Below are positions 7,631 to 53,489 of a stretch of 64,000 bases of DNA, piece by piece (within the stretch, counting starts at the first letter, position 1; the number at the start of each line of letters is the position of its first letter). Origin of the DNA: Xanthomonas indica (GTDB lineage: Bacteria > Pseudomonadota > Gammaproteobacteria > Xanthomonadales > Xanthomonadaceae); contig NZ_CP131914.1 in the NCBI RefSeq assembly GCF_040529045.1, forward strand, positions 4,572,501 to 4,636,500. Direction: 5' to 3'. The notes beneath the pieces were generated by a model. That model was given only the letters and a program-made list of their open reading frames with translations, was not told where the DNA came from and ran no database searches. A program made the translations under genes and the position numbers.

Positions 7631-9061
7631 CTACAGGGCCGGGAACACCGGCGCGCTGCTGCAGGCAGGGACCGACCCGGCGAGCGTGGTCGCATAGGTC
7701 GAGGCCGCGCTGCTGTCCTCGCTCAAGTGCAGGTCGGACTGGTCCACGCCGATGCGTGCGTTGCTGGCATGCAGGGCGGTGACGTCGGCGGCCACGTGCG
7801 CCAGCACCAGGTCCAGCGGCGTCGCGGCGCTGTAGCCCTGCACCGTGCTGCCCTTGCCCGCCGGCGTGTCCTGCGCGCGCAGGCCATCGACCACGATGCC
7901 GGTGAAGCTGGGCACGCTGCCGCTGCGGCTGCCGCCGCGGTCGTGGCCGTACAGCGGCGTGATCACCAGCGGCCTGGCCACGCCGAACAGGCAGGTGTTG
8001 CGGTAGAGCACGTCGCGCACCGGACCGCCCTTGGCCAGGCCGGTCTTGATGCGCAGGCCGTTGTTGTCGGTGGCGACGATGCCGTCGGCGTCGTGGCCGA
8101 CCACGCTGTTGCCGTCCACCAGCACGTTGCCGACGCCGTACATCACCTCGCTGCCGATGGAGATGCCGTGGGTGCCGTAGAAGCGCGAGTCGCGCACGGT
8201 GATGTCGGCCGAGCGCGCCGCGCTGGTCTTGATCGCGACGCCATCGTCGCCGGCCATCACGTCGTTGTCGGCCAGGGTCGCGTTGCGCACGCTGTCCAGA
8301 TCCAGGCCGTCGGTATTGGGGCTGTTGGCTGGCGCCCTGACCCGCACGCCCCACACGGTGACCCCGTCGCCGCCGTGCACGAACAGGTGGAAGTACGGCG
8401 CGTCGATCAGGTTGAGGTGGTAGAGCTGCAGATCGGCGACGTCCTGGGCGCGGATCAGGTCGGGGGCGTTCTGGGTCAGGCCGGCGGCCTTGGCGCTGCG
8501 CGCGAACTGCCACCAGCTGTCGCTGCCGCCGAGCATCGGCAGGTCGCCGCGGCCGTCGATGCTGCCCTGATGGCCGGCGGCATCGCGCACGCCCATCACG
8601 CCCAGGGCGCGCCCCTGCAGGGTGATCAGCGCGCGGCAGCTGCCGCTGCGCGTCGCCGCCTGGCCGCAGGCGCTGCGGCCGGGCACCTGGTAGTCGGCGG
8701 GCTGGCGCGAGGCGAACAGGGTCACGCCGCTGTCGATCGCCAGCGTGGTGTTGCTGCGCATCGTCAACGGCCCGCTGAGGAAGGCCGTGCCGCGGCCGGC
8801 GCGCAGCAGCACCATGCCGTGCGCGCCATCGGCGCAGCGGTCGAGCGCGGCCTGGATGCGCGCGGTGTCCGGCGGGTTGCGTTCCTGCGCGTCGGCGAAG
8901 CGGCGTTGCTGCGCCTGCAACGTAGCGTCGAGCGTGGTGCACAGCGACGGCAGCTGCGGTTCGACGACACGGCGGGAATCGCCGGTCGCCGCGCTACTGC
9001 CGAACGCAGCGGCGGCGAGCAGGCCGCCGAGCAGCAGCGCCGCGCGCATGGGTGAGGTCAT
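7631..9061 (-). CDS. Polygalacturonase, glycoside hydrolase family 28
   Basis: A 476-residue exported pectinase predicted to hydrolyse alpha-1,4-galacturonosyl bonds of plant pectate. A signal peptide covers about the first 25 residues. The parallel beta-helix holds all four GH28 signatures: NTDG (Asp251), GDDGVAIK (Asp272, Asp273), a THGISIGS form of the GHG motif (His298), and RIK (337-339). The usual Gly before the His is Thr here, a mild deviation. The ATG overlaps the stop of the VirJ-like gene (ATGA), so the two are coupled. A plant-associated lifestyle is implied. Confidence 0.9.
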   Translation of the reverse strand: MTSPMRAALLLGGLLAAAAFGSSAATGDSRRVVEPQLPSLCTTLDATLQAQQRRFADAQERNPPDTARIQAALDRCADGAHGMVLLRAGRGTAFLSGPLTMRSNTTLAIDSGVTLFASRQPADYQVPGRSACGQAATRSGSCRALITLQGRALGVMGVRDAAGHQGSIDGRGDLPMLGGSDSWWQFARSAKAAGLTQNAPDLIRAQDVADLQLYHLNLIDAPYFHLFVHGGDGVTVWGVRVRAPANSPNTDGLDLDSVRNATLADNDVMAGDDGVAIKTSAARSADITVRDSRFYGTHGISIGSEVMYGVGNVLVDGNSVVGHDADGIVATDNNGLRIKTGLAKGGPVRDVLYRNTCLFGVARPLVITPLYGHDRGGSRSGSVPSFTGIVVDGLRAQDTPAGKGSTVQGYSAATPLDLVLAHVAADVTALHASNARIGVDQSDLHLSEDSSAASTYATTLAGSVPACSSAPVFPAL

Positions 9062-10398
9062 TGCCGGAGTGCGCCCTGCGCTGGCTGCGGCGTGGCCGAG
9101 GGCGACGCCGCGGCCGGCGCGGGGTGCGGCGGCGTTCGCAATTCGGCGATGGGCTGCGCGCCGGCGGACAGCTGCTGCCAACGGTCGTCGACGATCGTCG
9201 CCAGCCCGGCCGGGTGTTGGTCGAAATGGTGACCGCCGTGCAACACCACCACCTCCGCGCCGCGCGCGCGCAGTTGCGGGCAGAGCGTATCGGTTTCCTT
9301 GTCGCCGTACACGCACAGCAATTGCGCCGGGGCGATGCGCGCCAGCTCCGGCAGCACCGGCAGCGCGTCGTCGGCGTCGCCGAGATTGAACCAGCCGCGC
9401 ACGCGGATCTGGAAATCGGCCTTGTGCTCCAGGCCCAGCAATGCGACCAGGCCGACCTGCTCGCGCTGCGCCGGCGGCAGCCGGTTGACCATGAACGGCA
9501 GCGTGGTGGCGCCGAAGGAATAGCCGACCAGCAGGATCTTCTGCGGCCGCCAGCGCTGCTGGTAATAGGCGATGACCCGGCTCAGGTCGGCGCTGGCCCG
9601 CGCCGGCGGCTTGGCCCGCCAGAAGTAGCGCAGGCTGTCCCAGCCGACCACGGCGATGCCGCGGCGCTGCAAGGCCTCGGCCATGCCCTTGTCGATGTCG
9701 CGCCAGCCGCCGTCGCCGGACAGCACGATGGCCAGCGGCGCGCCCGGGATGGTCGACGGCAGTTCGGTCAGCGGCAGGTCGTCCAGCGCGCCGCCGCGGC
9801 CGCGCGCATGCAGGTGCGCGGCGACCCGTGCCGCCAGCGCAGCCTCCACGCCGCCGTCGGCCGGCGCCGCCACGGTGTCGACGAAGCCCTGCGCCGGGGT
9901 GGCGGCGGCAGTGCCGGCGCAGACCTCTGTCGGCGCCGGCGCCACGCCGATGGCGCCGCCCAGGGTCGCGGTGGGCGCGGCCCCGACGATGCGCTCAGCC
10001 AGCGTGGCGGCAGTCCCGGTGCCGGCCAGCACCGGCAGGTAGTAGTTGTCGCCGTGCAACTGCCGCTGCAGCCGCCGGCTCAACTGCTCGGCATCGTGCC
10101 AGGCCTTGTCGCACCCGTGGCCGCCACGGCGCAGGTGCTTGAGATAGCGCTGGCCGTCGACCACCGCGACCAGCGCGCCGCTGGCGGCGATGCGCTGCGC
10201 AGCGTCCTGCCGCTGCGCCGGGCTGCCGCTGGCCAGCAGGATCACCAGGCCCTGCGGCGCGCCCTGCGGATGCACCAGGGTGGCGCGGCCGTAGCCGCGG
10301 GCGTGCAGCGCCCCCGGCGGAAAGTAATAGCGCAGCAGCGCGTAGCCGCTCAGGCCCAGCACCACGCTCGTCAACAGCAACACGCGCAGGAATTTCAT
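9058..10398 (-). CDS. virJ: AcvB/VirJ-family virulence protein (alpha/beta hydrolase fold)
   Basis: A 446-residue periplasmic or membrane-anchored protein. An N-terminal hydrophobic segment (residues 4-23) is followed by an N-terminal lobe and then the VirJ domain proper from about residue 205, with LSGDGGWRDIDK, GWDSLRYFW-KPP, the nucleophile elbow VGYSFGA (Ser294) and a late GGHHFDQ His. Agrobacterium AcvB/VirJ supports T-DNA transfer, and AcvB hydrolyses lysyl-phosphatidylglycerol; no mprF-like gene is adjacent here. The MKFLRVLL start is preferred over a start 45 bp upstream. It is upstream of and coupled to the polygalacturonase gene. Confidence 0.85.
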   Translation of the reverse strand: MKFLRVLLLTSVVLGLSGYALLRYYFPPGALHARGYGRATLVHPQGAPQGLVILLASGSPAQRQDAAQRIAASGALVAVVDGQRYLKHLRRGGHGCDKAWHDAEQLSRRLQRQLHGDNYYLPVLAGTGTAATLAERIVGAAPTATLGGAIGVAPAPTEVCAGTAAATPAQGFVDTVAAPADGGVEAALAARVAAHLHARGRGGALDDLPLTELPSTIPGAPLAIVLSGDGGWRDIDKGMAEALQRRGIAVVGWDSLRYFWRAKPPARASADLSRVIAYYQQRWRPQKILLVGYSFGATTLPFMVNRLPPAQREQVGLVALLGLEHKADFQIRVRGWFNLGDADDALPVLPELARIAPAQLLCVYGDKETDTLCPQLRARGAEVVVLHGGHHFDQHPAGLATIVDDRWQQLSAGAQPIAELRTPPHPAPAAASPSATPQPAQGALRQ

Positions 10399-17871: not shown

Positions 17872-17900
17872 GGCTGGGATGATCAGCCATTCGGCTGCTG

Positions 17901-18077
17901 AAAAGCCGGGAGTCGGGATTGGGGAGTCGCAAAAGCAGGAAGCCGGCGCCTTGAAGCCACGAAGAACCGCGCGATCGCGCGGTTTTTTCATTTTGGCCGC
18001 AGCGCGAACGGTATCCACACCAGCCAAGCCGCTCTTGCCATTCCCCAATCCCGACTCCCAAATCCCCGCTTTTGCTG
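17901..18077. repeat. Inverted heptamer-type arms flanking the kinase terminator
   Basis: The left arm 17901-17939 (GGGAGTCGGGATTGGGGAG, then GCAAAAGC) is mirrored by the right arm 18039-18077 (CCCCAATCCCGACTCCC, then GCTTTTGC). The terminator at 17965-17988 lies in the central segment. The rest of the 280-bp gap before the sigma-54 activator gene shows no gene. Confidence 0.8.
17965..17988 (+). terminator. Rho-independent terminator after the PfkB kinase
   Basis: AACCGCGCG-AT-CGCGCGGTT, a near-perfect stem, runs into TTTTTT. It sits about 95 bp past the kinase stop. Confidence 0.9.
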
Positions 18078-18151
18078 CACTGCGGTTTGAGCCCGGCATC
18101 CGATTGTGCGTCACTGGCGGCCTGATCCGGGGTCGGATCGAGGGGCGCCAC

Positions 18152-20134
18152 GTGTCGGAGTTGACTGTAGCCAACCTCCCGCAGGCCGCGGCCTCGGCGC
18201 CATCGGCCGCCGAGGCCGAGTCCGCCTTGCTGGCGCGGATGCGCCGGTTCCGCCAGATCGATCCGTTGCCGCCTGCCCTGGCGCGCTCCTGGCGGCGCTG
18301 CCTCGACGACTACGGCCTGGACCCGGACACCCATCCCTCACCGATGGTCCACGACAACGGCCAGCTGCGCGAGCGCCAGCAGCGGCTGGAGGCGCTGCTG
18401 CGCATCGCCAAGGTGGAGATGGAGAATCTCTACGAGCAGATCGCCGGCGGCAGCTACGCGGTGGTGTTCGCCGATACCGAGGCCACCGTGCTGCACAGCG
18501 TGCAGGATCCGGCGCTGCTGCGGGCGTTCCGCGAGACCGGGCTGTTTTGCGGCGCCAGCTGGGCCGAACGCTACCAGGGCACCAACGGCATCGGCACCTG
18601 CGCGGTGGAGTGCAGCGCGCTGAGCGTGCACCGGGGCGAGCATTACCTGGAACGGCACCTGCCGCTATCGTGCAGCGGCGCGCCGATCCTGGATCCGCAA
18701 GGCCACCTGCTGGCGGTGCTGGATGCCTCCACGCCCGACGCGCGCGACACCAAGCTGGTGCAATGCCATACCGGCGCGCTGGTGCGCATGTCGGCGGCGC
18801 AGATCGCCCGCGCCTACTTCCTGGAGCAGTACCGGCATGCGTGGATCCTGCGCTTCCACAGCCGCCCGGAGTTCGCCGGGCTGCTGCACGAGGCGCTGAT
18901 CGCGGTCGGCGGCGATGGCCGCGTGCTCGCGGTCAACGAGGCGACGCTGGAACAGCTGGGCAAGCCGGATCGCACCGCACTGGTCGGGCGCGACATCGCC
19001 CAGGTGATGCAGCTGGATTTCGATACGCTGGAGCAGCGCGCGCGCAACGATGCCAGCACCCTGTGGTCGATCCGCTGCGCCTGCCACGGCCGCCGCTTCT
19101 TCGCCCTGGCGCAGCCGCCGCGCGCGCGCATCGCTGCCGGCCGAACGCGCGCCGCCGGCGAGGATGGCCAGGCTGCACGGGCCAACGACCATGTCGGCTC
19201 CGATCCGCGCGTGCTGCACAACCTGGACAATGCGCTGAAGCTGGCCAAGCACCGCGTGTCGATCCTGCTGTGCGGCGCCACCGGCACCGGCAAGGAAGAA
19301 TTCGCCAAGGCGGTGCACCGCAGCTCGCCCTGGGCCGACCGGCCGTTCGTGGCGGTGAACTGCGCGGCGATTCCCGAAGCGCTGATCGAGAGCGAACTGT
19401 TCGGCTACGCGCGCGGCGCCTTCACCGATGCCGCGCGCGAAGGACGCCACGGCAAGCTGCTGCAGGCCAGCGGTGGCACCTTGTTCCTGGACGAGATCGG
19501 CGACATGCCACTGCCCTTGCAGACGCGCCTGCTGCGCGTGCTGGAGGAACAGAGCGTGACGCCGCTGGGCAGCGACCGCGCGATGCCGCTGGAATTGCAC
19601 GTGATCAGCGCCAGCCACCGCGACCTGGCGCAGATGGTCGGCACCGGCGGCTTCCGCGAGGATTTGTACTACCGGCTCAACGGCGTGGTGCTACACCTGC
19701 CGCCGCTGCGCGAGCGTAGCGACAAGGCCGAACTGATCCGCACCCTGTTGCGCGAGGAGAGCGGCGAGCAACCGGTGCGCATCAGCGAGGACGCCCTGCA
19801 CAAGCTGCTCAGCTATGCCTGGCCCGGCAACCTGCGGCAGCTGCGCAACGTGCTGCGCACCGCCGCCGTGCTGTGCGCCGACGGTGTCATCCGCATCCCC
19901 AACCTGCCGCAGGAGATCGTCGACGCCGACAGCGGGCCGTGCCTGCTCGGCGACGATGCGCACGCCGCCGACGGCGTACCCGGCCGCGTCGCCCTGGACA
20001 GCGCCGAGCGCAGCGTGCTGCAACAGCAACTCGAGCGCCACCGCTGGAACGTCAGCCGCACCGCCGATGCGCTGGGCATCAGCCGCAATACCCTGTATCG
20101 CAAGCTGCGCAAGCATGGGTTGGCGACGGTGTGA
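18152..20134 (+). CDS. Sigma-54-dependent transcriptional activator, AcoR-like (GAF-AAA-Fis)
   Basis: A 660-residue enhancer-binding protein, likely regulator of the alcohol-oxidation operon it faces. An AcoR-type N-terminus (ARSWRRC) and GAF-like sensor (about 100-220) precede a PAS-like stretch (240-320). The AAA+ domain has Walker A GATGTGKE (375-382), Walker B LFLDEIGD (444-451), and GAFTDA (422-427) in place of the consensus sigma-54 loop GAFTGA. A Fis-type helix-turn-helix ends the protein (about 631-655). The GTG at 18152 is chosen because GAGGGG lies just upstream; a longer in-frame start would read through the repeat element. The activator's role in this operon is inferred from proximity and the -24/-12 promoter at 29777. 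Confidence 0.85.
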   Translation: MSELTVANLPQAAASAPSAAEAESALLARMRRFRQIDPLPPALARSWRRCLDDYGLDPDTHPSPMVHDNGQLRERQQRLEALLRIAKVEMENLYEQIAGGSYAVVFADTEATVLHSVQDPALLRAFRETGLFCGASWAERYQGTNGIGTCAVECSALSVHRGEHYLERHLPLSCSGAPILDPQGHLLAVLDASTPDARDTKLVQCHTGALVRMSAAQIARAYFLEQYRHAWILRFHSRPEFAGLLHEALIAVGGDGRVLAVNEATLEQLGKPDRTALVGRDIAQVMQLDFDTLEQRARNDASTLWSIRCACHGRRFFALAQPPRARIAAGRTRAAGEDGQAARANDHVGSDPRVLHNLDNALKLAKHRVSILLCGATGTGKEEFAKAVHRSSPWADRPFVAVNCAAIPEALIESELFGYARGAFTDAAREGRHGKLLQASGGTLFLDEIGDMPLPLQTRLLRVLEEQSVTPLGSDRAMPLELHVISASHRDLAQMVGTGGFREDLYYRLNGVVLHLPPLRERSDKAELIRTLLREESGEQPVRISEDALHKLLSYAWPGNLRQLRNVLRTAAVLCADGVIRIPNLPQEIVDADSGPCLLGDDAHAADGVPGRVALDSAERSVLQQQLERHRWNVSRTADALGISRNTLYRKLRKHGLATV

Positions 20135-20680: not shown

Positions 20681-23077
20681 CTAGAAACGCCAGCGCAGGC
20701 CGACCTGGTACTGCCGCGGCGCGCCAGGCGCGACGAAACGCGAGGGGCCGTCCTCCACCGCAGCGTCCTGCGGACGCGCCAGGGCACCGCCCGGGAACAG
20801 GTCCTCGGCGATCGCCGCATAGGTCTCGTAGCGGCGGTCGAACACGTTGTTGATCCGCAGGTACAGCGACAGCCCGTCGGCAAGTTCCCAGGTGCCGTGC
20901 AGGTCGAGCAAGGCGTAGCCGCCGGTGGACAGGTCGTGGCGCGCGGGCGCCTCGCCGTCCTCCGGATCCTCCACCAGGCCGTCCTCGTTGCCGCTGGCCA
21001 CGCGCCGCGACACCGCGCGCAGGTCCGCGCCCAGCACCAGCTGCGCCAGCGCCTGCCATTCCACGCCCAGCTTCAGCGTGTTGCGCGGCAGCCCGGCGAT
21101 GCGCGTGCCCGGGCGCAGCGCCACGCTGCGTTCGCCCGAGAGCAGTTCGCCGACGCTGCGGTAGGTGGCATCCAGGTAGCTGTAGCCGGCGAACCAGCGC
21201 AGCGCGCCGTGGCTGCCGCGGTAGCTGAGGTCGGCGCCCTGGTAGCGGGTGCGGCCGACGTTGTCGAAATAGCCTTGCTGGGTATTGGGCGCGCGCAGGA
21301 ACAGGATGTCGTCGCGGTTGTCGGCGCGGTACAACGAGGCGTTCAGCGCCTGCGCCGGCGACGGGTTCCAGCGCAGGCCGAGTTCGTAGGTGCGCGAGAC
21401 GATCTGCTCCAGCCGCGGATCGGCCTGCAGCCCGGTCGGCAACCGGCACGGCTGCTCCGGGTCGGCGCAGCCGAGTTCGATCGCGGTCGGCGCGCGGCTG
21501 TTCTGCGAGGCCGAGGCGAACGCGGTGACGCCGCCGCCCAGGCGCTGGGTGATGCCCAGCGACGGATTGGCCTTGGCGAACACGAAGCGCTCGCGCGGCA
21601 ACACGCCGTCGTCGCCGGTGGACAGGGTGTTGGCGACGGCGACGCGGTTCCAGCGCAGCGCGCCGCTGACATGGGTGGCCTCGCTCAACTCCCAGTTATC
21701 GGCGGCGAACAGGCCCAGGGTGCTGCTGTGGCCGTCGACCCCGGAGAAGAACGCCCGGCCCTCGTCCGGATCGGCGACCACCGAGCGGTCATCCTGCACG
21801 AACGCGTCCTGCGCGTACTGCCGGTAGCGCACGCGGTTGCGGTCGTAGGTGGCGCCGATGCTCAGCGCATGCGCGCCGGCCTGGCGGCTGAGATTCAGCG
21901 CCACGCCCTCGGCATGCTGGCGCATCTGCGTGGTGTTGAGCACGCCGCTGTGCAGCGCGTCGGCATCGGCGCGCGCGACCGTGCAACCCGCCTCCAGCGG
22001 CGTGCCATCGGCAGCGTAGCCGTCGGCGCAGTCGTCGACGAAGTCCTCGTAGTCGTCGTTGATGTCGCCATTGACGGTGTCGCGGCGCCCCTGCCGGTAG
22101 TACGCCAGCACATGGAGCGCGGTGCGTTCGTCGAAGCGGTGGTCGAACTGACCGGTCAGCAAGGTGTTGCGGTTGCGGGTCAGGTCCGGCGAGGTGTAGA
22201 CCGCGGCACGGTCGGCCTCGTACAGACCGGGCTCGGTACCCGCGTCGGTATAGCGAAAGCTCGGCAGCAGGCCGTTGCCGACCAGGCGGCTGCGCCCGTG
22301 CAGCAGCGACACGTCCCAATCGGTGCGCTCGCCCTGCCGCCCGAACTTGCCAAACACGGTGCCCAGACGGCCGGCGGAGGCGTCGCGCCAGCCGTTCTCG
22401 TCGAAGCCGGTGGCCGCGACGAAGGCATGCAGGCCGTCAGGGCCGGCGTAACCGTAGGACGCATCCAGGCGCTTGCGCGCGCCGCTGCCCACCGACAGGT
22501 CGGCGCGCAGGCCCGGCGCGGTCAGGCCGGACTGGGTGGTGAAGGCCAGCGCGCCGCCCAATGTGTTGGGACCGAACAACGGGTTGGAGCCCGGCATCAG
22601 CGCGACGCTGCGGATCGCCGCCTCCGGCATCATGTCCCAGCTGACGATGTCGGCGAACGGCTCGTTCATGCGCACGCCGTCCAGGTACACCGACACGCCC
22701 TGCGAGGCGCCGGGCAGCGCCGAGGCGCGGAAGCCGCGGAAGGTCAGATCGGTCTGGAACGGACTGCCCTGCACCTCGTTGGTGTCCACGCCGTTCATCT
22801 CGCGCAGCAGGAAGTCGGTGAGGTTGCCGGCCTGGCTGCGCGCGATGTCGTCGGCATTGGCGGTCTGCACGGTGTACGGCAGCAGGTCGGCATCGATCAG
22901 TGTGCCGGGAATCGGCGTGGCGGTGACCTCGACCCGGTCCAGCGCGGTGATCTGCGCATCGTCGGCGTTGACCGTGGTCTGCGCGCGCGCCGGTACGGCG
23001 AGCAGGCCGATGGCGGTGGCGACGGCCAGCGCAAGCAGGCTCGCCGGCGGGGTGCTGCATCCTGGAGTCAGAGTCAT
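20681..23077 (-). CDS. TonB-dependent outer-membrane receptor
   Basis: A 798-residue receptor predicted to import a large or scarce ligand across the outer membrane using TonB energy. It has a signal peptide (to about AVPARA-Q), a TonB-box-like DRVEVTATP, a plug domain (NLTDFLLREMNGVDTNEVQG; GVSVYLDGVRMNEPFADIVSWDMMP) and a 22-strand-type barrel ending in the typical terminal Phe (QVGLRWRF). It is the last gene of the operon, 16 bp after the ADH gene. Context suggests import of something the alcohol dehydrogenase needs, such as a lanthanide chelate or PQQ; ligand identity is inference. The start is ATG 23077, giving a proper signal peptide. Confidence 0.9.
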   Translation of the reverse strand: MTLTPGCSTPPASLLALAVATAIGLLAVPARAQTTVNADDAQITALDRVEVTATPIPGTLIDADLLPYTVQTANADDIARSQAGNLTDFLLREMNGVDTNEVQGSPFQTDLTFRGFRASALPGASQGVSVYLDGVRMNEPFADIVSWDMMPEAAIRSVALMPGSNPLFGPNTLGGALAFTTQSGLTAPGLRADLSVGSGARKRLDASYGYAGPDGLHAFVAATGFDENGWRDASAGRLGTVFGKFGRQGERTDWDVSLLHGRSRLVGNGLLPSFRYTDAGTEPGLYEADRAAVYTSPDLTRNRNTLLTGQFDHRFDERTALHVLAYYRQGRRDTVNGDINDDYEDFVDDCADGYAADGTPLEAGCTVARADADALHSGVLNTTQMRQHAEGVALNLSRQAGAHALSIGATYDRNRVRYRQYAQDAFVQDDRSVVADPDEGRAFFSGVDGHSSTLGLFAADNWELSEATHVSGALRWNRVAVANTLSTGDDGVLPRERFVFAKANPSLGITQRLGGGVTAFASASQNSRAPTAIELGCADPEQPCRLPTGLQADPRLEQIVSRTYELGLRWNPSPAQALNASLYRADNRDDILFLRAPNTQQGYFDNVGRTRYQGADLSYRGSHGALRWFAGYSYLDATYRSVGELLSGERSVALRPGTRIAGLPRNTLKLGVEWQALAQLVLGADLRAVSRRVASGNEDGLVEDPEDGEAPARHDLSTGGYALLDLHGTWELADGLSLYLRINNVFDRRYETYAAIAEDLFPGGALARPQDAAVEDGPSRFVAPGAPRQYQVGLRWRF

Positions 23078-23093
23078 GCCGGTTCCTTGAGGC

Positions 23094-24203
23094 TCAGTAG
23101 AGAACGATCGATTTGATGCCACGACCCGCGCGCAGCGTCTCGAAGCCGCGATTGATGTGGTCCAGCGGCAGGGTTTCGCTGATGAGTTCGTCGATGCGGA
23201 TCTCGCCGGCCAGGTAGCGCTCGGCATAGGCCGGCAATTCGCTGCGCCCCTTGACCCCGCCGAACGCGCTGCCGCGCCAGGCGCGCCCGGTGACCAGTTG
23301 CAGCGGCCGCGTGCTGATCTCCTGCGCGCTCGGCGCCACGCCGAGGATGATGCTTTCGCCCCAGCCCTTGTGGCAGCACTCCAACGCCGCGCGCATCGCA
23401 CGCACGTCGCCGACGCAGGCGAAGCTGTGGTCGGCACCGCCATCGGTGAGATCGACGATGACCTGCTGCACCGGCGCGCCGAAATCCTTCGGGTCCAGGC
23501 AGTCGGTGGCGCCCAGCGCGCGCGCCAGCGGGAACTTGTCGCGGTTGATGTCGACCACGATGATGCGTTCGGCGCGCGCCATCACCGCGCCCTGCACCAC
23601 CGACAGGCCGATCCCGCCCAGCCCGAACACCGCCACATTCTCGCCCGGCCGCACCCGCGCGGTGTTGAGCACCGCGCCGATGCCGGTGGTGACCGTGCAG
23701 CCGAGCAGGCAGGCCTTGTCCAGCGGCGCGGACGGATGGATCCTGGCCACCGCGATCTCCGGCAGCACCGTGTATTCGGCGAAGGTGCTGGTGCCCATGT
23801 AGTGCAGCAGCGGGCGCCCGTGCAGCGAGAAGCGGCTGCTGCCGTCGGGCATCAGCCCACGGTCCTGGCTGCTGCGGATCGCCTGGCACAGGTTGGTGCG
23901 GTTGGAACGGCAGTACTTGCACACGCCGCACTCGGGCATGTAAAGCGGGATCACGTGATCGCCGGGGCGCACGCTGGTCACGCCGATGCCGACCTCTTCG
24001 ACCACGCCGGCGCCTTCCTGGCCCAGGATCACCGGGAATGCCGCCTCGGCATCGGCGCCGGACAAGGCGATCTCGTCGCTGTGGCAGATGCCGCTGGCGA
24101 CCATCCGCACCAGCACCTCGCCGGCCTTGGGCGGCTGCAGATCCACCTCCTCGATGGCCAGCGGCTGGTTCGCCGCCCAGGCGACCGCGGCTCGCGTCTT
24201 CAT
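23094..24203 (-). CDS. S-(hydroxymethyl)glutathione dehydrogenase / class III alcohol dehydrogenase-like
   Basis: A 369-residue cytosolic zinc alcohol dehydrogenase, the same length as E. coli FrmA and closely similar along its whole length. It would oxidise the glutathione adduct of formaldehyde (or another alcohol) with NAD+. Structural-zinc Cys 92, 95, 98 and 106, catalytic-zinc Cys40 and Cys169, the FGLGGIGLSV Rossmann motif and GRAWRGSAFGGVKGR are present. The expected zinc ligand His in GHEGAG is Gln62 (codon CAG) here, which is odd. It lies between the beta-propeller gene (53-bp gap) and the TonB receptor, fitting removal of the aldehyde formed in the periplasm. Confidence 0.85.
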   Translation of the reverse strand: MKTRAAVAWAANQPLAIEEVDLQPPKAGEVLVRMVASGICHSDEIALSGADAEAAFPVILGQEGAGVVEEVGIGVTSVRPGDHVIPLYMPECGVCKYCRSNRTNLCQAIRSSQDRGLMPDGSSRFSLHGRPLLHYMGTSTFAEYTVLPEIAVARIHPSAPLDKACLLGCTVTTGIGAVLNTARVRPGENVAVFGLGGIGLSVVQGAVMARAERIIVVDINRDKFPLARALGATDCLDPKDFGAPVQQVIVDLTDGGADHSFACVGDVRAMRAALECCHKGWGESIILGVAPSAQEISTRPLQLVTGRAWRGSAFGGVKGRSELPAYAERYLAGEIRIDELISETLPLDHINRGFETLRAGRGIKSIVLY

Positions 24204-24256
24204 TCCGGCTCTCCCCGCCTCCCGTCGCGGCACCCACCGGCGCCGCTGGCCTCACG

Positions 24257-25276
24257 TCATTGCGCCACGACCACACCCCATGGCATCTCGCCCACCGCGA
24301 TCTGCTTGATCTCCTTCATCGCTGCCGTGTCGATGACGCTGACACTGTTGGACCGGCCGTTGGCCACGTACAGCGTCTTGCCGTCCGTGCTCAGCGCCGG
24401 GTTCCACGGCCGCTGCCCGACCGGAATCTCGGCCAAGGTGCGGCGCGCGGCCGGATCGATCACGCTGACCGTGCCGGCGCCGTTGGACGCGTACACGCGG
24501 CTGCCGTCGCGGGCGATGGCGATGCCGGCGGTGCGCTGCCCGGCCGGAATGCTGGCCACGCGCTTGCGCGCCGCCAGATCGATCACGTCGACCACGTTGG
24601 CCGACTCCTGCGCCACGTAGACCGTCTTGCCGTCGGGCGCGAACGCCATGCCGCGTGGATGCCCGCTGGTGGCGATGACGCCGGTGGACGTACCGGCCTG
24701 CACGTCGATCACGTCCAGGTCGTTGGAGCCTTCGTTGCTGGTCAGCAACAACGCACCGTCCGGGGTGTAGACGCAGTGTTCCGGCGCCTGCCCGCGGGTG
24801 GCGATGTGCGCGCCGATCGCGAAGCTGGCCGGGTCGATCAGCATCACCTGGTTCTGCCCTTCCACGCACACCGCGAGCTGGTGACCATCCGGCGCCACCG
24901 CGACGCCTTCGGCGTTCTCGCCGATGTCGACGCTGCGCAGCACGCGGTCCTGCACGGTATCCAGCTCCAGCAGGCGGTGGCCCTGCGCGTCGATGACGTA
25001 CAGATGCCCTGCCGGCCCCGGCACCACCTGCTGCAGGCGCTTGCCGAGCTGGCCCTGCGCCGACAGCGTGCGCACCACGCGGGCGCTGCCGGTGTCGATC
25101 ACCGAAATGGTGCCGCTGCGCTGGTTCGGGACGTAGGCCAGCGCCGCCGGGCTGGCCGCAGGCGCCGGTGCGGCCGCCGCGGCATCGGTGCCGGCCGCCG
25201 GCGCAGGCGTGCGCTGGCAGGCCGCGGCGAACAGCGACAGCGCGACGACGGCGGACAAGCGCAACCCGTTCCTCAT
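24257..25276 (-). CDS. YVTN/PQQ-catabolism-associated beta-propeller lipoprotein
   Basis: A 339-residue lipoprotein (lipobox FAAAC) with an Ala/Pro linker and then about seven YVTN-type repeats: AYVPNQRSGTISVID, LYVIDAQGHRLLELD, VYVAQESANVVDVID, VYASNGAGTVSVID, LYVANGRSNSVSVID. Beta-propeller proteins of this sort are regularly found beside PQQ-dependent alcohol dehydrogenase genes (TIGR03866-like family); their role is not established. The ATG overlaps the cytochrome stop (ATGA), so it is coupled to the cytochrome gene. Confidence 0.88.
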   Translation of the reverse strand: MRNGLRLSAVVALSLFAAACQRTPAPAAGTDAAAAAPAPAASPAALAYVPNQRSGTISVIDTGSARVVRTLSAQGQLGKRLQQVVPGPAGHLYVIDAQGHRLLELDTVQDRVLRSVDIGENAEGVAVAPDGHQLAVCVEGQNQVMLIDPASFAIGAHIATRGQAPEHCVYTPDGALLLTSNEGSNDLDVIDVQAGTSTGVIATSGHPRGMAFAPDGKTVYVAQESANVVDVIDLAARKRVASIPAGQRTAGIAIARDGSRVYASNGAGTVSVIDPAARRTLAEIPVGQRPWNPALSTDGKTLYVANGRSNSVSVIDTAAMKEIKQIAVGEMPWGVVVAQ

Positions 25277-25857
25277 TGCGTGGCGCCCGCGGTCTTGTTG
25301 ATGGAGTGGATGAAGGCCAGCAGCTTCTCGGTATCGCCCGGCTTGAGCACCGGCCCGAACGGCGGCATCTGCCCCACCACCTTCTCGTGGCCGATCCGGG
25401 TCTTGCCGTGCGCGGCCATCCCGGCGGTGCCTTCGGTGATCAGCGCGCGCAAGGTGTCGTCGTCGTTGCCGTACACCCAGATGTCGTTGGTCAGCGGCGG
25501 GCACATGCCGCCGCCACCGGTGCCGCCGTGGCAGGCGGTGCAGCCGGCGGAGTTGAAGATCGCCTTGCCCTCGGCGACCAGTTCCGGAGTGACCTTGACC
25601 GGCGGTCCCTTCGGAATCGGCGTCACCGCCGCAGCCGGTGCCGGTGCGGCGGCAGCGGGTGCGGCGGGCGCGGCCGCCGTCGGGGCGGAGGCAGGTGCAG
25701 ACGCGGGCGCCGCGGCAGGGGCGGCCGGTGCGGGGGTGGCCGCCGGGGCTGGTGGCGCCTCCTGCTTGCCGCAGGCGGCCAACAACAGGAGCGAAGCGAA
25801 CAGGAACACGGGGAACAGCAGGGAGGTGGTGCGACGACGGATGGAGGCAGGACGCAT
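25273..25857 (-). CDS. Cytochrome c lipoprotein, likely electron acceptor of the PQQ dehydrogenase
   Basis: A 194-residue single-haem cytochrome c. A signal peptide ends in the lipobox LLLAAC (Cys29), followed by an Ala/Pro-rich tether (to about residue 80). The haem site is Cys106-Thr-Ala-Cys109-His110, and the likely axial Met is Met164 in GQMPPFG. By position and type it corresponds to the XoxG/PedF cytochrome that takes electrons from quinoprotein dehydrogenases, although it is not a close copy of either. It lies 77 bp after the xoxJ-like gene and overlaps the propeller gene. Confidence 0.9.
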   Translation of the reverse strand: MRPASIRRRTTSLLFPVFLFASLLLLAACGKQEAPPAPAATPAPAAPAAAPASAPASAPTAAAPAAPAAAAPAPAAAVTPIPKGPPVKVTPELVAEGKAIFNSAGCTACHGGTGGGGMCPPLTNDIWVYGNDDDTLRALITEGTAGMAAHGKTRIGHEKVVGQMPPFGPVLKPGDTEKLLAFIHSINKTAGATQ

Positions 25858-25934
25858 GGGGACAACACCTTTGCGGAGTACTCGATGGGAAGAACAGGCC
25901 GCGCGAGCGGCGTGTGCGGGACGACAGGAAGCGG

Positions 25935-27683
25935 TCATTGCGTGCGGCGGTGCTGAGCCTCCGTCAGCAAGTGGGCGAGTTCGGCATTGCCGCGTTGCTG
26001 GGCCAGCGCTGCCGGGGTCTTGCCGTCGGCGTCGCGCGCATCGGCGCTGGCACCGGCGGCGAGCAGGCGCCGGGCGCTGTCCTCGCGCCCGGCCGCGGCG
26101 GCGAGCATCAACGGGGTGACGCCGGCGCGGTTCGCACGGTCGGCCTCGGCGCCGCGCTCGAGCAGCAGGTCGAGGATCGTCGGATCGTTGCGCGCCACCG
26201 CGAACATCACCGGCGTAAAGCCGGCCGGATTGGCGCGGCGCACGCTGGCGCCGGCGTCGAGCAACGCCTGCACCACGTCGGCATCGGCGTAGGAGATCGC
26301 CAGGTCCAGCGGCGTCCAGCCGTCGGTGGACACGGCCTCGACCTTGGCGCGATGCGCCAGCAACTGCGCGACGCTCCTGCCGTCGTTGGACCATGCCGCC
26401 TTCATCAGCGGCGTCCAGCCATTGCTGTCGCGGCGTTCGACCTGGGCACCGGCGGCCAGCAGTTCGCCGACCAGCAGCGGCGCCTGGTTGCGGATCGCCT
26501 GCTGCAGCGGCGGCTCGCCGAGCCGGTTGGGCTGGTCGGCGCTGGCGCCGTGACGCAGCAGCCAGGCCACGCGCACGCCATCGCCGGCGTCGAGTGCATG
26601 CGCCAGTTCCTCGTTGGGATCGGCGCCACCGGCGATGCGCAGCTGCAATTGCGCCAGCATGTCCGAGGAGGCCTGCGCGCTCGGCGTGTCGTCCTGATCG
26701 GCGGGCGCCGGATAGGGGCCGTGCGAGCGCAGGTCGCCGGCGACGATGCAATCGGCGCAGGCCACCAGCGGCACGTGGTAGTCGCGCAGGATCGCGCCGA
26801 TCTTGCCGGCGCTGCGCTGCATCGCCGCGTTCAGCGCATCGCGCAGTGCGGCGTTCTTGCGCGACACCGCCCATGCCATCGAGTACTCCAGCACCTCGTT
26901 GTCGATGACGTTCAACGGCACCACGCCGAGGCCGCCGCGCGCGGCGTAGTAGCCGGCCACCGGCCCCCAGGACTCGGCGGCATCGAGCTTGCCGGCGGCG
27001 ACCTGCTCGGCGAGCTTGCCGGGATGCTCCTGCGGCGCGCTGGCCGAGTCGTAGAACAGGTACTGCACCTCGCCCTGCACGCCATGGTCGAACAGCGCCT
27101 GCCGCGCCGGCGAACTCTGGAACACGCCGACCTTGAGTTTTTTCAACGCCGGATCGTCGAGCGAAGCCGGCCGCAGCTCCAGGCCCTTGCGGGTGACCAG
27201 CACATAGGTGGAGCGATACAGCGGGCGCGTGGGCAGGCCCATCTCGAAATCGCTGTTCATGTCCATCAGCACGTCGCAACGCCCGGCGTTGATCGTGCTG
27301 CGCGCCAGGCCGCGCTGGTAATAGCTGCGCCACTCGTACTCCAGGCGCCGGCCCATCTCCGCGGCCACCACCTGGGCGATCTTGTTCTGGAAGCCCTCGC
27401 CTGCGCGATCGGACAACGGCATGTTGCCGGGATCGGCGCAGACCCGCAGTACCGGCGCATCGGCCGGCAGCGTGGCGGCGGGCGCGGCGGAAGCCGGCGC
27501 CGCGGCAGCGGGCGGGGCCGCAGGAGCGCGAGCCGTCGCGGACGACGGCTCGCGCGTGCAGCCTGCGGCGACGAGTCCGAGGCTGCACCACAGCAACACG
27601 GCGCGCGCGCCCGCAGGCAGGCGCCACGCAGCGGGCGCCATGCGGCCCCCGCTCGCCTCCTGGACGCGGCGCCGCCGGCTCAT
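25935..27683 (-). CDS. XoxJ-like periplasmic binding protein fused to ankyrin repeats
   Basis: A 582-residue lipoprotein (Cys42 in LVAAGC). Residues about 78-305 are a quinoprotein-dehydrogenase-associated solute-binding domain: LRVCADPGNMPLSDRAGEGFQNKIA, GRCDVLMDMNSDFEMGLPTRPLYRSTYVLV, KLKVGVFQSSPARQAL, LDAAESWGPVAGYYA. A CADC motif (309-312) ends this part. Residues about 355-575 hold five or six ankyrin repeats (NGWTPLMKAAWSNDG, DGWTPLDLAISYADA, AGFTPVMFAVARND, AGVTPLMLAAAAGRE). XoxJ is needed for XoxF activity in methylotrophs, perhaps for maturation. The ATG overlaps the xoxF stop (ATGA); an internal ATG at 27641 is an alternative start. Confidence 0.86.
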   Translation of the reverse strand: MSRRRRVQEASGGRMAPAAWRLPAGARAVLLWCSLGLVAAGCTREPSSATARAPAAPPAAAAPASAAPAATLPADAPVLRVCADPGNMPLSDRAGEGFQNKIAQVVAAEMGRRLEYEWRSYYQRGLARSTINAGRCDVLMDMNSDFEMGLPTRPLYRSTYVLVTRKGLELRPASLDDPALKKLKVGVFQSSPARQALFDHGVQGEVQYLFYDSASAPQEHPGKLAEQVAAGKLDAAESWGPVAGYYAARGGLGVVPLNVIDNEVLEYSMAWAVSRKNAALRDALNAAMQRSAGKIGAILRDYHVPLVACADCIVAGDLRSHGPYPAPADQDDTPSAQASSDMLAQLQLRIAGGADPNEELAHALDAGDGVRVAWLLRHGASADQPNRLGEPPLQQAIRNQAPLLVGELLAAGAQVERRDSNGWTPLMKAAWSNDGRSVAQLLAHRAKVEAVSTDGWTPLDLAISYADADVVQALLDAGASVRRANPAGFTPVMFAVARNDPTILDLLLERGAEADRANRAGVTPLMLAAAAGREDSARRLLAAGASADARDADGKTPAALAQQRGNAELAHLLTEAQHRRTQ

Positions 27684-29692
27684 CGCACCGTCTTGGCGGC
27701 GACCGCCGCGCTGCCGCCGCCAGCGGCCGCGGTGGCGGTCGTGGTGGGGGTAACGGTCTTGCCGGCGCCGTCGATGCGGAAGGTGTGCACCATGCCGCCC
27801 AATGGGATCTTGTCGAAGCCGTTGCTGAAGGCCAGGCCGGCGGCCCCCAGCGCGCCGTACGGATCGCCCGGATCCAGGCCGGCGGCGACCGGCAGGCCGA
27901 TCCAGCCGCCGATGCCCGAGAACACCGCCACGTACTGGTGGCCGTTGGCCTTGTAGGCGATCGGGTTGCCGATGATGCCCGAGGGCAACTTGGTCTCCCA
28001 GAGCTTCTTGCCGGTGTCCTTGTCCACGGCGCGGAACCAGCCGTCCAGCGTGCCGTAGAACACCAGCCCGCCATCGGTGACCAGGGTGCCGCTCCACACC
28101 GGGAACTTCTCCTTGATCTCCCACTTGGACTTGCCCTCGACCACGTCGAATGCCTTGACGATGCCCAGCGCGCCGGGCTCGTTCGGCTTCATCAGCACGT
28201 TGGCGAACACGTACGGCAGGCCCATCATGGTGTTGCCGCGCTCCTGCGGGTCCAGCTCCATGTGCCAGTTGTTGGTGCCGCAGAAGAACACCGCCGCGTT
28301 GGCCGGATCCACCGAGCACGGCTGCTGGTCCTTGCCGCCCATCGCCGAGGGGAACGCCTCGACCTTGCGGCCGCGCTCCAGCGGCGAATGCGCCGCGACC
28401 TTGACCGGGCGCCCGGTCTTCATGTCGATGCGCTCGGCCCAGTTGGCCGGCACGAACTTGTTGGCGCGCAGCAGCGTGCCATCGCGGCGGTCGAGCACAT
28501 AGGCGAAGCCGTTGCGATCGAACTGCACCACCGAGGGCACCTGCTTGCCGTCGATGGTCAGGTCGACCAGGATCGGCTCGTTGATGCCGTCGTAGTCCCA
28601 CTGGTCGAACGGCGTCTTCTGGTAGCCCCACACCGCTTCGCCGGTGTCGATCTTGCGCGCGAACAGGGTCATCGACCACTTGTTGTCGTACTCGCCGGTG
28701 TCGCACTCCTTCTGCGTGGTCTTGCCGCAGCGGTACGACGGGCTCCACAGGCCGGGATTGCCGGTGCCGTAATAGACCAGCTTGAGTTTCGGGTCGTAGC
28801 TGTACCAGCCCCACGCCGCGCCGCCGCCGCGCTTCCAGCCTTCGTCGGGATAGGTCTTCTGGCCAAGGTCGCCGAGCTGGCCGTGCTGCGGATTGGCCTT
28901 GTTGAAGTCCGGGCCCAGGCAGATGTCCTTGTCGGTGCCGGTGGCTTCGCAGGACCAGGCCTGCTTGCCGTCGGCCAGCGCATACGCGGCGACGCGGCCG
29001 CGCACGCCGAACTCGTTGCCGCTGATGCCGGCCACGACCTTGCCGTCGGCGATGATCGGGGCCATGGTGATGGTCTCGCCCTTCTCCGGATAGGCGAGCT
29101 TCTGCTTCCACACTTCCTTGCCGGTCTTGGCATCGAGCGCGATCACGTCGCCGCTGAGGCTGCCGAACACCACCTTGCCGTCGGCGTAGGAGGCGCCGCG
29201 GTTGACTGTGTCGCAGCAGGCCACCGCCACCGCGCGCTCGTCCTGCTGCGGGGTGTACTTCCACAGCACCTTGCCGTTGTCTTCCTGCGACAGGTCGATC
29301 GCGAACACGTTGTTCGGGTAGGCGCTGACCATGTACATGGTGCTGCCCACCACCAGCGGCTGGCCTTCGTGGCCGCGGGTGGCGTCGGTCTTCATCTCCC
29401 ACGACATCTTCAGGTTCTTGACGTTGTCGCGGTTGATCTCGGCCAGCGGGCTGTGCCGGGTCAGGCCGAAATCGCGGCCGACGCCGCCCCAGTTGTCGGG
29501 GTTGGCGGCATTGCTGGCGAACTCGCTGTCGGTATCGGCGACCGCGGCCGGCGCGGCGGCCGGCGGTTGCTGCGCGGCGGCCGGCGCGGCCGGCGCCGCG
29601 GCCTCTTCCTGCTTCTTGCAACCCGCCAGCGCCAACGCAGTGGCCAGTGCGAGCAATGTACAAGCCCGGGTACGACGTGAATGACTGTGCAT
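27680..29692 (-). CDS. PQQ-dependent alcohol dehydrogenase with lanthanide-type active site (XoxF/PedH-like)
   Basis: A 670-residue periplasmic quinoprotein, probably lipid-anchored (LALAGC, Cys25), oxidising methanol, ethanol or other alcohols. Eight-bladed propeller motifs and TGKEVWKQKL-type W-motifs are present. Active-site residues are the vicinal disulfide Cys159-Cys160, metal ligand Glu227 (GNEFGVRG), Asn312 (GTGNPGLWSP), catalytic Asp366 and an additional Asp368 in WDYDG. The Asp two residues after the catalytic Asp is the marker of lanthanide-dependent enzymes; calcium enzymes have Ala or Ser there. The ATG at 29692 follows GAGGGGAG. It heads a six-gene operon behind a sigma-54-type promoter. 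Substrate is not determinable from sequence. Confidence 0.92.
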   Translation of the reverse strand: MHSHSRRTRACTLLALATALALAGCKKQEEAAAPAAPAAAQQPPAAAPAAVADTDSEFASNAANPDNWGGVGRDFGLTRHSPLAEINRDNVKNLKMSWEMKTDATRGHEGQPLVVGSTMYMVSAYPNNVFAIDLSQEDNGKVLWKYTPQQDERAVAVACCDTVNRGASYADGKVVFGSLSGDVIALDAKTGKEVWKQKLAYPEKGETITMAPIIADGKVVAGISGNEFGVRGRVAAYALADGKQAWSCEATGTDKDICLGPDFNKANPQHGQLGDLGQKTYPDEGWKRGGGAAWGWYSYDPKLKLVYYGTGNPGLWSPSYRCGKTTQKECDTGEYDNKWSMTLFARKIDTGEAVWGYQKTPFDQWDYDGINEPILVDLTIDGKQVPSVVQFDRNGFAYVLDRRDGTLLRANKFVPANWAERIDMKTGRPVKVAAHSPLERGRKVEAFPSAMGGKDQQPCSVDPANAAVFFCGTNNWHMELDPQERGNTMMGLPYVFANVLMKPNEPGALGIVKAFDVVEGKSKWEIKEKFPVWSGTLVTDGGLVFYGTLDGWFRAVDKDTGKKLWETKLPSGIIGNPIAYKANGHQYVAVFSGIGGWIGLPVAAGLDPGDPYGALGAAGLAFSNGFDKIPLGGMVHTFRIDGAGKTVTPTTTATAAAGGGSAAVAAKTVR

Positions 29693-29776
29693 CGTTCTAC
29701 TCCCCTCGTTGAAGAGCCGCGACAGCTGCACCTGGTGGTGCGTGTGCCACGGAACCTGAAGCGTGGGTGTCTACGA

Positions 29777-29791
29777 GCAACGTCCATGCCA
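29777..29791 (-). promoter_or_regulatory. Sigma-54 (-24/-12) promoter of the alcohol-oxidation operon
   Basis: TGGCATGGACGTTGC on the minus strand differs from TGGCACG-N4-TTGC at one base. The invariant GG and GC are separated by the required 10 bp. Predicted transcription start is near 29765, giving a leader of about 73 nt before the ATG at 29692. Confidence 0.75.
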
Positions 29792-53422: not shown

Positions 53423-53489
53423 GGTTCGGATCCGGGAAGGACAGCGCCGCACCGTAGCATGCGGCCTCGCCGCCCTCCCCTGCCGAAGG

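Follow-up and report, generated by a model that had tools for sequence, protein, structure and literature searches.

Rare-earth-dependent alcohol oxidation by XoxF, a pyrroloquinoline quinone (PQQ) alcohol dehydrogenase, is described from several bacterial groups, and here we set beside these systems a six-gene operon of Xanthomonas indica found in a stretch of 64,000 nucleotides (contig NZ_CP131914.1, positions 4,572,501 to 4,636,500, hereafter the window), at 4.57-4.64 Mb of a one-contig genome of 4.81 Mb. The closest solved relative of its dehydrogenase, XoxF1 of Methylacidimicrobium thermophilum AP8 (PDB 7o6z), was reported with neodymium (PMC8546591), belongs to the same clade and shares the four lanthanide ligands and the vicinal cysteines. 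At verrucomicrobial loci related to the source of that structure (L038, L039, L040, L055), xoxF1 is followed, as in the window, by a XoxJ-ankyrin gene and a cytochrome gene, but these relatives differ in having no lipobox by the rule given below, Asp rather than Asn before the ligand Glu, the propeller gene on the other strand and, within the stretches compared, no FrmA-type gene. Methylocella silvestris, an alphaproteobacterial methanotroph and in this unlike our Xanthomonas, carries xoxF1, XoxJ and cytochrome genes with adjacent LutBAH homologues, namely a propeller, a binding protein and a TonB receptor (Msil_3146-3149 and neighbours; PMC9291206); FrmA, a sigma-54 activator, lipidation and ankyrin do not feature in the account consulted, and the main text of that paper makes no mention of sigma, GAF or ankyrin. 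The ped cluster of Pseudomonas putida (PedH, PedA1A2BC) resembles the window in pairing a periplasmic lanthanide-type PQQ alcohol dehydrogenase with a PQQ-associated propeller, PedA2 (PMC12997753), but its enzyme is distant (308-315 bits) and its regulators are others; strain KT2440 is described there as lacking a LutH homologue. The xoxF3 clusters of Acidobacteria and Gemmatimonadetes likewise combine xoxF with cytochromes and, in the legend to Fig. 5 of PMC10875860, a YncE propeller and TonB, yet they belong to clade 3 and include cox/ctaG genes and NRAMP. LutH and LanA are TonB receptors reported as required for lanthanide uptake or the lanthanide switch (PMC12482762), and the likeness of the window receptor to them is one of linkage only.

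The original prediction, made from the bare sequence, held that this gene combination was undescribed in the group. That stands for the genus Xanthomonas, for which no description was found in the open-licence PMC literature (the scope of all our literature searches), but not more widely, given the M. silvestris locus with its LutBAH homologues (PMC9291206) and the earlier record of xoxF1 in Xanthomonadaceae, a family among the predominant ones in 13C-methanol labelling (PMC9258066). The enzyme type, the presence of XoxF1 in the family and a propeller and TonB receptor beside xoxF1 are already known; what appears to be new comprises the predicted lipid anchors, the XoxJ-ankyrin fusion, an Asn at a position called diagnostic, the close partnership of the receptor with XoxF1, and a conserved putative sigma-54 promoter with its candidate activator. 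We consider it reasonably probable that the locus encodes a XoxF1 system for alcohol oxidation that is under sigma-54 control and has lipoproteins as its periplasmic components. If so, a large genus of plant bacteria would oxidise alcohols in a rare-earth-dependent way and have a dedicated importer for the metal.

The XoxF1 dehydrogenase and its operon

The operon comprises six minus-strand genes at 20681-29692, whose predicted coordinates and families were borne out by profile searches:

27680..29692, minus strand: xoxF1, PQQ methanol dehydrogenase, 670 aa (TIGR03075, PDB 7o6z, ligand map, tree, lipobox)
25935..27683, minus strand: xoxJ-ankyrin fusion, 582 aa (TIGR03871, Ank_2, alignment, structure model, Foldseek)
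25273..25857, minus strand: cytochrome c, 194 aa (Cytochrome_CBB3 / Cytochrom_C in Pfam, lipobox, CxxCH in homologues)
24257..25276, minus strand: YVTN beta-propeller, 339 aa (TIGR02276 above and TIGR03866 below cut-off, lipobox-like AAAC)
23094..24203, minus strand: class III alcohol / S-(hydroxymethyl)glutathione dehydrogenase (FrmA type), 369 aa (TIGR02818)
20681..23077, minus strand: TonB-dependent receptor of a XoxF1-linked family, 798 aa (plug and barrel in Pfam, linkage, co-occurrence)

The dehydrogenase scores 599 bits with TIGR03075 (PQQ alcohol dehydrogenase; cut-off 480). Its best PDB match is 7o6z at 905 bits, followed by the XoxF2 structure 4mae at 634, while the quinoprotein ethanol dehydrogenases 6zcv and 6zcw, the latter of which we take to be PedH, reach only 315 and 308. 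In a maximum-likelihood tree of 56 rows, thinned by leaving out 20 of the 27 Xanthomonas rows, the window enzyme and 7o6z fall in a clade of 35 rows with 100/100 support, and 4mae, 6dam, 6oc5 and 4tqo (XoxF2, two other XoxF structures and MxaF) lie outside it. The phylogeny against other clades that had been proposed as a check thus identifies the enzyme as XoxF1, and scores and tree together rule out the PedH-like identity that the original prediction had offered beside XoxF. Its other claim for this protein, a lanthanide-type ligand set with a WDYDG motif, was upheld: E227, N312, D366 and D368 are all present, as is a vicinal C159-C160 pair, and D366 and D368 align with D299 and D301 of SolV, where the lanthanide ligands are given as Glu, Asn, Asp and Asp at 172, 256, 299 and 301 (PMC11845868). 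All four ligands are complete in each of the 55 XoxF1 rows of a 76-row XoxF alignment, from which L061 and L063, whose XoxF is short or broken, were omitted.

One residue departs from the published description of the clade. The Asp preceding the ligand Glu has been termed diagnostic of XoxF1 (PMC8546591), and the window enzyme has N226 in its place, as do all 32 Lysobacteraceae rows; the other 23 XoxF1 rows have Asp (20), Asn (2) or Ser (1). Since the marker fails while the placement in the clade stands, we still file the dehydrogenase as XoxF1 by descent, and the published criterion would miss a whole family. The residue facing the Asn is Thr in 4mae, Ala in 31 of the 32 Lysobacteraceae rows and Cys in 7o6z, presumably its published Cys240; because Ala also occurs in 12 of the 23 other XoxF1 rows, it is no special mark. 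Separately, the genome of Methyloceanibacter methanicus (L042, G020) holds four genes of the XoxF1 clade, of which two lie roughly 1 kb from each other; at the diagnostic position two of the copies carry Asn or Ser.

Two gene pairs, xoxF/xoxJ and cytochrome/propeller, are joined by four-base ATGA overlaps, as had been noted, and the remaining gaps measure 77, 53 and 16 bases. Gene order and strand are kept in 24 of 28 Xanthomonas loci, which makes the arrangement more than chance; of the four exceptions, L010 and L029 end at a contig edge, L023 lacks xoxJ and L063 is a remnant. Within the genus, xoxF1 occurs in 16 of 20 genomes examined and pqqB in 19, the window genome included, and among 149 evenly drawn genomes of the family xoxF1 is found at 75% identity or more in 13, with a relative of 45-49% in four others. 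The core of xoxF, xoxJ-ankyrin, cytochrome and propeller is common to Lysobacter, Pseudoxanthomonas and Coralloluteibacterium. The FrmA-type gene is not restricted to Xanthomonas, being present at four other loci: near xoxF1 in Coralloluteibacterium (67%) and Rudaea (71%), in a Paraburkholderia metagenome-assembled genome (MAG; names are those of the records) with the same gene order up to this gene (69%), where the contig ends, and in a gammaproteobacterial MAG whose xoxJ-ankyrin gene is followed on one strand by genes for a cytochrome, an activator, the FrmA-type enzyme (58%), a propeller and a partial receptor.

Predicted lipid anchors and the XoxJ-ankyrin fusion

Each of the four periplasmic proteins begins with a positive n-region, a hydrophobic stretch and a lipobox cysteine, as bacterial lipoproteins do: Cys25 of XoxF in LAGC (followed by KK), Cys42 of XoxJ in AAGC, Cys29 of the cytochrome in LAAC and Cys20 of the propeller in AAAC. 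In all four an Ala/Pro-rich linker trails the cysteine, that of the cytochrome spanning some 60 residues before the haem domain. Under a broad rule that asks for the consensus [LVIMAFT][ASTGVIL][GASN]C and also sets conditions on hydrophobicity and charge, the Xanthomonas loci and a near-identical Lysobacterales MAG were positive for XoxF in 28 of 29 cases, XoxJ in 27 of 27, the cytochrome in 24 of 25 and the propeller in 25 of 25. The two misses were X. cissicola L029, which has an altered start, and L023, which lacks xoxJ and has a changed start for the cytochrome. Outside the family the same rule was positive once in 75 proteins (XoxF 0/23, XoxJ 0/18, cytochrome 1/16, propeller 0/18). Three other Lysobacteraceae gave XoxF 0/3 and XoxJ, cytochrome and propeller 2/3 each; the XoxF signal of Lysobacter and Pseudoxanthomonas ends in APAAC, a form that the rule does not cover. 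In the E. coli sorting rule for lipoproteins the residue after the cysteine decides the membrane, and since in Xanthomonas rows this residue is never Asp, the outer membrane would be favoured, as far as the E. coli rule carries over to Xanthomonas. A search for XoxF together with lipoprotein and lanthanide returned no relevant title.

The second protein joins a lipobox-like Cys42 and a XoxJ core (79-307) to a C309-x-x-C312 motif and ankyrin repeats at about 356-581. It belongs to XoxJ by profile (TIGR03871, 252.6 bits, curated cut-off 212.15) and by fold (Foldseek 6onp, template-modelling score 0.90 by target), and a structure model built from 20 sequences (mean predicted local distance difference test score, pLDDT, 79.3) has a XoxJ domain and an ankyrin solenoid, whose mutual arrangement is unsure because the predicted template-modelling score is 0.50. 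Of the 48 loci that have XoxJ, 44 encode both parts in a single reading frame, and these are 44 of the 46 loci of XoxF1 type; they extend over Xanthomonas, Hyphomicrobium-type Alphaproteobacteria, Nevskia and Rudaea MAGs and Verrucomicrobia. The parts occupy separate frames in Methyloceanibacter superfactus and Methyloligella halotolerans, and XoxJ is without ankyrin in two Bosea-type rows that group with 6oc5 outside XoxF1, on the XoxF5 side. The CxxC between core and repeats is present at 44 of the 46 XoxF1 loci and in neither XoxF5-side XoxJ. In 149 plasmid records that match XoxJ, no match covered the fusion to 80% or more, and no paper linking XoxJ to ankyrin was found; a paper that names XoxF together with ankyrin proved unrelated. 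Identity as an ankyrin effector was rejected, the effector models that match scoring far below cut-off and the repeats alone accounting for the matches.

From these features a more specific, and tentative, picture can be drawn, which we hold possible though somewhat short of probable. Lanthanide methanol oxidation in Xanthomonas may take place in a membrane-tethered lipoprotein assembly in which dehydrogenase, chaperone, cytochrome and propeller are all lipid-anchored, perhaps in the outer membrane beside the metal receptor, and are held by the periplasmic ankyrin domain of XoxJ, whose CxxC motif may serve to form the vicinal disulfide in XoxF; the XoxJ-ankyrin protein would be a clade-wide, so far unnamed XoxF1 part from Verrucomicrobia to Xanthomonas. 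If so, ankyrin-fused XoxJ would be a structural hallmark of the XoxF1 clade, and the lipid anchors a second one for its Xanthomonas branch.

Receptor, metal and substrate

The TonB receptor was sought in the 149 family genomes by scoring the best 6-8 candidates in each. At E 1e-40 it is present in 12 genomes, every one of which belongs to the 13 with XoxF1, and in none of the other 136; simple counting puts the chance of this co-occurrence at 8e-17, although the genomes are related to one another. Among seven further XoxF1 genomes, six have one receptor match each below 1e-15. In five of these, namely LP2A, Rudaea, a Methylacidiphilaceae MAG, Coralloluteibacterium and the gammaproteobacterial MAG (partial, at a contig end), the match falls within 8 kb of xoxF1. 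No PDB sequence matches it at E 1e-4, and its structure model is weak (mean pLDDT 61.8). Relatives on plasmids (25 records, 13 regions examined) have a PQQ alcohol dehydrogenase within 10 kb in five regions, all five lanthanide-type with W-D-(F/Y)-D-G and Cys-Cys, and in a sixth, from Methylobacterium nodulans, a relative of 27% identity is beside lanmodulin. Because of the co-occurrence with XoxF1 and of these lanthanide-type enzyme or lanmodulin neighbours, lanthanide uptake is favoured over PQQ or iron, and the receptor is probably an importer of lanthanides or their chelates; it would then define a candidate receptor family for lanthanide uptake that includes Burkholderia with relatives beside lanthanide-type PQQ enzymes. 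The M. nodulans region, on plasmid pMNOD02 (L115, 9797-17160), encodes the receptor relative, a response regulator, lanmodulin (NF053806, 175.5 bits, cut-off 135) and a YncE protein. The Burkholderia plasmids L105 and L109 combine a lanthanide-type PQQ alcohol dehydrogenase, a TonB receptor and a sigma-54 activator, a parallel arrangement outside XoxF1, and L105 additionally carries pqqABCDE as well as a gene for a binding protein that gives weak cytochrome-like matches.

As foreseen, an aldehyde-disposal gene stands in the same gene run: the FrmA-type enzyme is a glutathione-dependent formaldehyde enzyme by its score with TIGR02818 (class III alcohol dehydrogenase; 612.5 bits, cut-off 544), and FghA is encoded elsewhere in the genome (425 bits). 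Since a second class III enzyme, 63% identical over the 252 aa compared, sits beside fghA, the copy in the operon may have a dedicated role. The genome has no RuBisCO match, and hexulose-phosphate synthase reaches 28 of 200 bits, below cut-off. Growth on methanol by the Calvin or ribulose monophosphate routes was rejected on these grounds, the serine cycle being outside the test, and energy gain or detoxification appears likelier. The genus was correctly anticipated to be plant-associated, and such bacteria degrade pectin, which would bring them into contact with methanol. A gene at 7631-9316 (minus strand), some 11 kb from the operon, encodes a polygalacturonase-like protein (NF051860, 88 of 600 bits), a possible pectin enzyme that would lend the pectin-methanol idea slight support.

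In the mechanism that we propose, the receptor would import chelated rare-earth ions, the XoxJ-ankyrin lipoprotein would assist the loading of PQQ and metal into XoxF1, and membrane-tied XoxF1 would oxidise methanol, or a small alcohol like it, to formaldehyde or formate, electrons passing from it through the putatively lipid-anchored cytochrome c to an oxidase. The propeller, well above cut-off for YVTN repeats (TIGR02276, 179 bits against 28) and below it for PQQ-associated propellers (TIGR03866, 173.7 against 287.3), could be a LutB/PedA2-like helper in metal or PQQ handling. Cytoplasmic formaldehyde would be converted to formate by the FrmA-type enzyme and FghA. The neighbouring sigma-54 activator would switch the operon on, and the system would yield energy or remove a toxic alcohol rather than support growth on methanol. 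Of this picture, the gene content, the clade, the ligands, the lipobox consensus, the fusion, the promoter box and the co-occurrence are read directly from sequence, while the metal, the substrate, the lipidation itself, the electron path, the pairing of regulator with promoter and the cargo of the receptor are inferred.

Several observations weigh against this reading. Apart from N226, the XoxF1 isolated from Ca. Methylomirabilis oxyfera has the extra Asp and yet apparently contained calcium, and that of M. silvestris is repressed by lanthanum (both as related in PMC9291206). The Lysobacter XoxF1 genome is without this receptor (its only match, 25% over 415 aa, is on the other strand), Pseudoxanthomonas has a 35% relative outside the xoxF1 locus, and seven of the 13 plasmid regions have neither a PQQ alcohol dehydrogenase nor lanmodulin near the relative, two of the seven having a propeller relative. 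Neither an ABC importer nor lanmodulin is among the six operon proteins, the rest of the genome not having been searched for such genes. The XoxG / cytochrome cL model TIGR03872 gives the cytochrome 27.2 bits against a cut-off of 147.8, so that we label it a cytochrome c in the XoxG position and not XoxG. Formate dehydrogenase alpha (TIGR01591) is over cut-off in none of the 20 genus genomes, the window genome included; a relative of about 500 bits occurs in 11 of them, the window strain being without it. Finally, lipid anchoring is predicted from a consensus rule and not from SignalP or another trained predictor, and position -3, Leu in XoxF and the cytochrome, is Ala in XoxJ and the propeller, which the rule allows but which is less typical.

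Four alternatives were considered. The M. oxyfera and M. silvestris reports (PMC9291206), with Asn replacing the Asp beside the ligand Glu in every Lysobacteraceae row, suggest that XoxF1 here might, like the enzyme reported from M. oxyfera, work with calcium (or with either metal), and that the receptor carries something else; we regard this as rather unlikely in view of the complete ligand set in all 55 XoxF1 rows, the neodymium in 7o6z (PMC8546591) and the occurrence of receptor relatives beside lanthanide-type enzymes and lanmodulin. The claim that the second Asp signals a rare earth therefore survives in part: the ligand set favours a lanthanide, and lanthanide dependence is likely, but because of those same two reports the single-residue argument, although good, is not decisive within the XoxF1 clade. 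The receptor might import PQQ, an iron siderophore or a copper chelate instead of lanthanides. Its best general model is TonB-siderophor (116 of 223 bits, against 69 of 1200 for PqqU), two relatives lie near pqq genes and one, in Ideonella, near copper and methanobactin-type genes; against such cargo stand the co-occurrence with XoxF1 (12/13 versus 0/136), the lanthanide type of all five neighbouring dehydrogenases, the lanmodulin neighbour in M. nodulans and the presence of pqqB in three of four genus genomes without XoxF1 (the receptor was not sought in those four), and we think it unlikely.

As to the substrate, class III alcohol dehydrogenases also accept longer alcohols, and in a genome without RuBisCO, and without hexulose-phosphate synthase over cut-off, the physiological substrate might be another small plant alcohol or aldehyde. 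The XoxF1 clade and the S-(hydroxymethyl)glutathione dehydrogenase type of the operon enzyme point instead to methanol and formaldehyde, and Xanthomonadaceae rank among the predominant 13C-methanol-labelled families (PMC9258066); this alternative is on the unlikely side. Last, the four proteins could be ordinary soluble periplasmic ones whose cysteine bears no lipid, as the lack of a lipobox in all 23 XoxF rows outside the family, the ordinary-looking signal peptide of Coralloluteibacterium XoxF and the silence of the literature searched on XoxF lipoproteins might suggest. That a lipobox cysteine recurs in four proteins of one operon, is kept genus-wide and is followed by Ala/Pro-rich linkers, under a rule positive in a single one of 75 control proteins outside the family, makes this improbable, and argues for the lipoprotein reading.

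Putative promoter, probable regulator and neighbouring features

Upstream of and beyond the operon lie three further features:

29776..29791, minus strand: sigma-54 (-24/-12) promoter-like box TGGCATG-N4-TTGCT, 99 bases 5' of the xoxF start codon
29947..29961, minus strand: dyad GGCAT-N5-ATGCC, a possible activator site, a lead that turned up post hoc in the promoter-box scan
17879..20134, plus strand: sigma-54 activator convergent with the operon, probable regulator (Sigma54_activat and HTH_8 in Pfam)

A -24/-12 consensus and a nearby activator gene, the marks of a sigma-54 promoter, are both present. None of 300 dinucleotide shuffles scored as well as the window box, and 0-2 of 300 did at six other Xanthomonas loci tested. 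The box core is kept in the window and at all 28 Xanthomonas loci, with variation in the spacer and at two non-spacer positions (C/T; T/G/C). The box recurs at the Nevskia, Rudaea, Paraburkholderia and gammaproteobacterial MAG loci (0-2/300 shuffles as good) and was not found at those tested from Lysobacter, Pseudoxanthomonas, Coralloluteibacterium, six Alphaproteobacteria, two Verrucomicrobia and a Methylococcaceae MAG (22-298/300 as good). A dyad related to that of the window, GG(C/T)(G/A)CA-N3-(T/G)GTGCC, occurs at 24 of the 28 Xanthomonas loci, in most cases some 100 bases ahead of the box; that pattern is absent from the window itself.

The activator, for which among the matches listed no model of its kind exceeds its cut-off, is the probable regulator of the operon. 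Homologues are present at 20 of the 28 Xanthomonas loci, some other loci ending before its place, and adjoin xoxF1 in Rudaea (56% over 637 aa) and the gammaproteobacterial MAG (40% over 644 aa), while relatives of 38-40% over 659-756 aa adjoin the lanthanide-type PQQ alcohol dehydrogenase of the two Burkholderia plasmids. The sigma-54 activators at three verrucomicrobial loci were rejected as kin, the match spanning only 274-323 aa. A sigma-54 activator as neighbour is not a first, since the legend to a set of methanol dehydrogenase gene clusters in PMC11845868 names a GAF-modulated sigma-54 regulator, without saying to which cluster it belongs.

In the assemblies of Xanthomonas L023, L029, L031, L034 and L063 the operon is damaged or incomplete (xoxJ missing, altered start, shortened frames, remnant), and since several strains are so affected, the trait may have been lost repeatedly. 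Elsewhere in the window, two prolyl-oligopeptidase (S9) genes lie at 46891-49020 and 51317-53452, both on the minus strand and a few kilobases apart.

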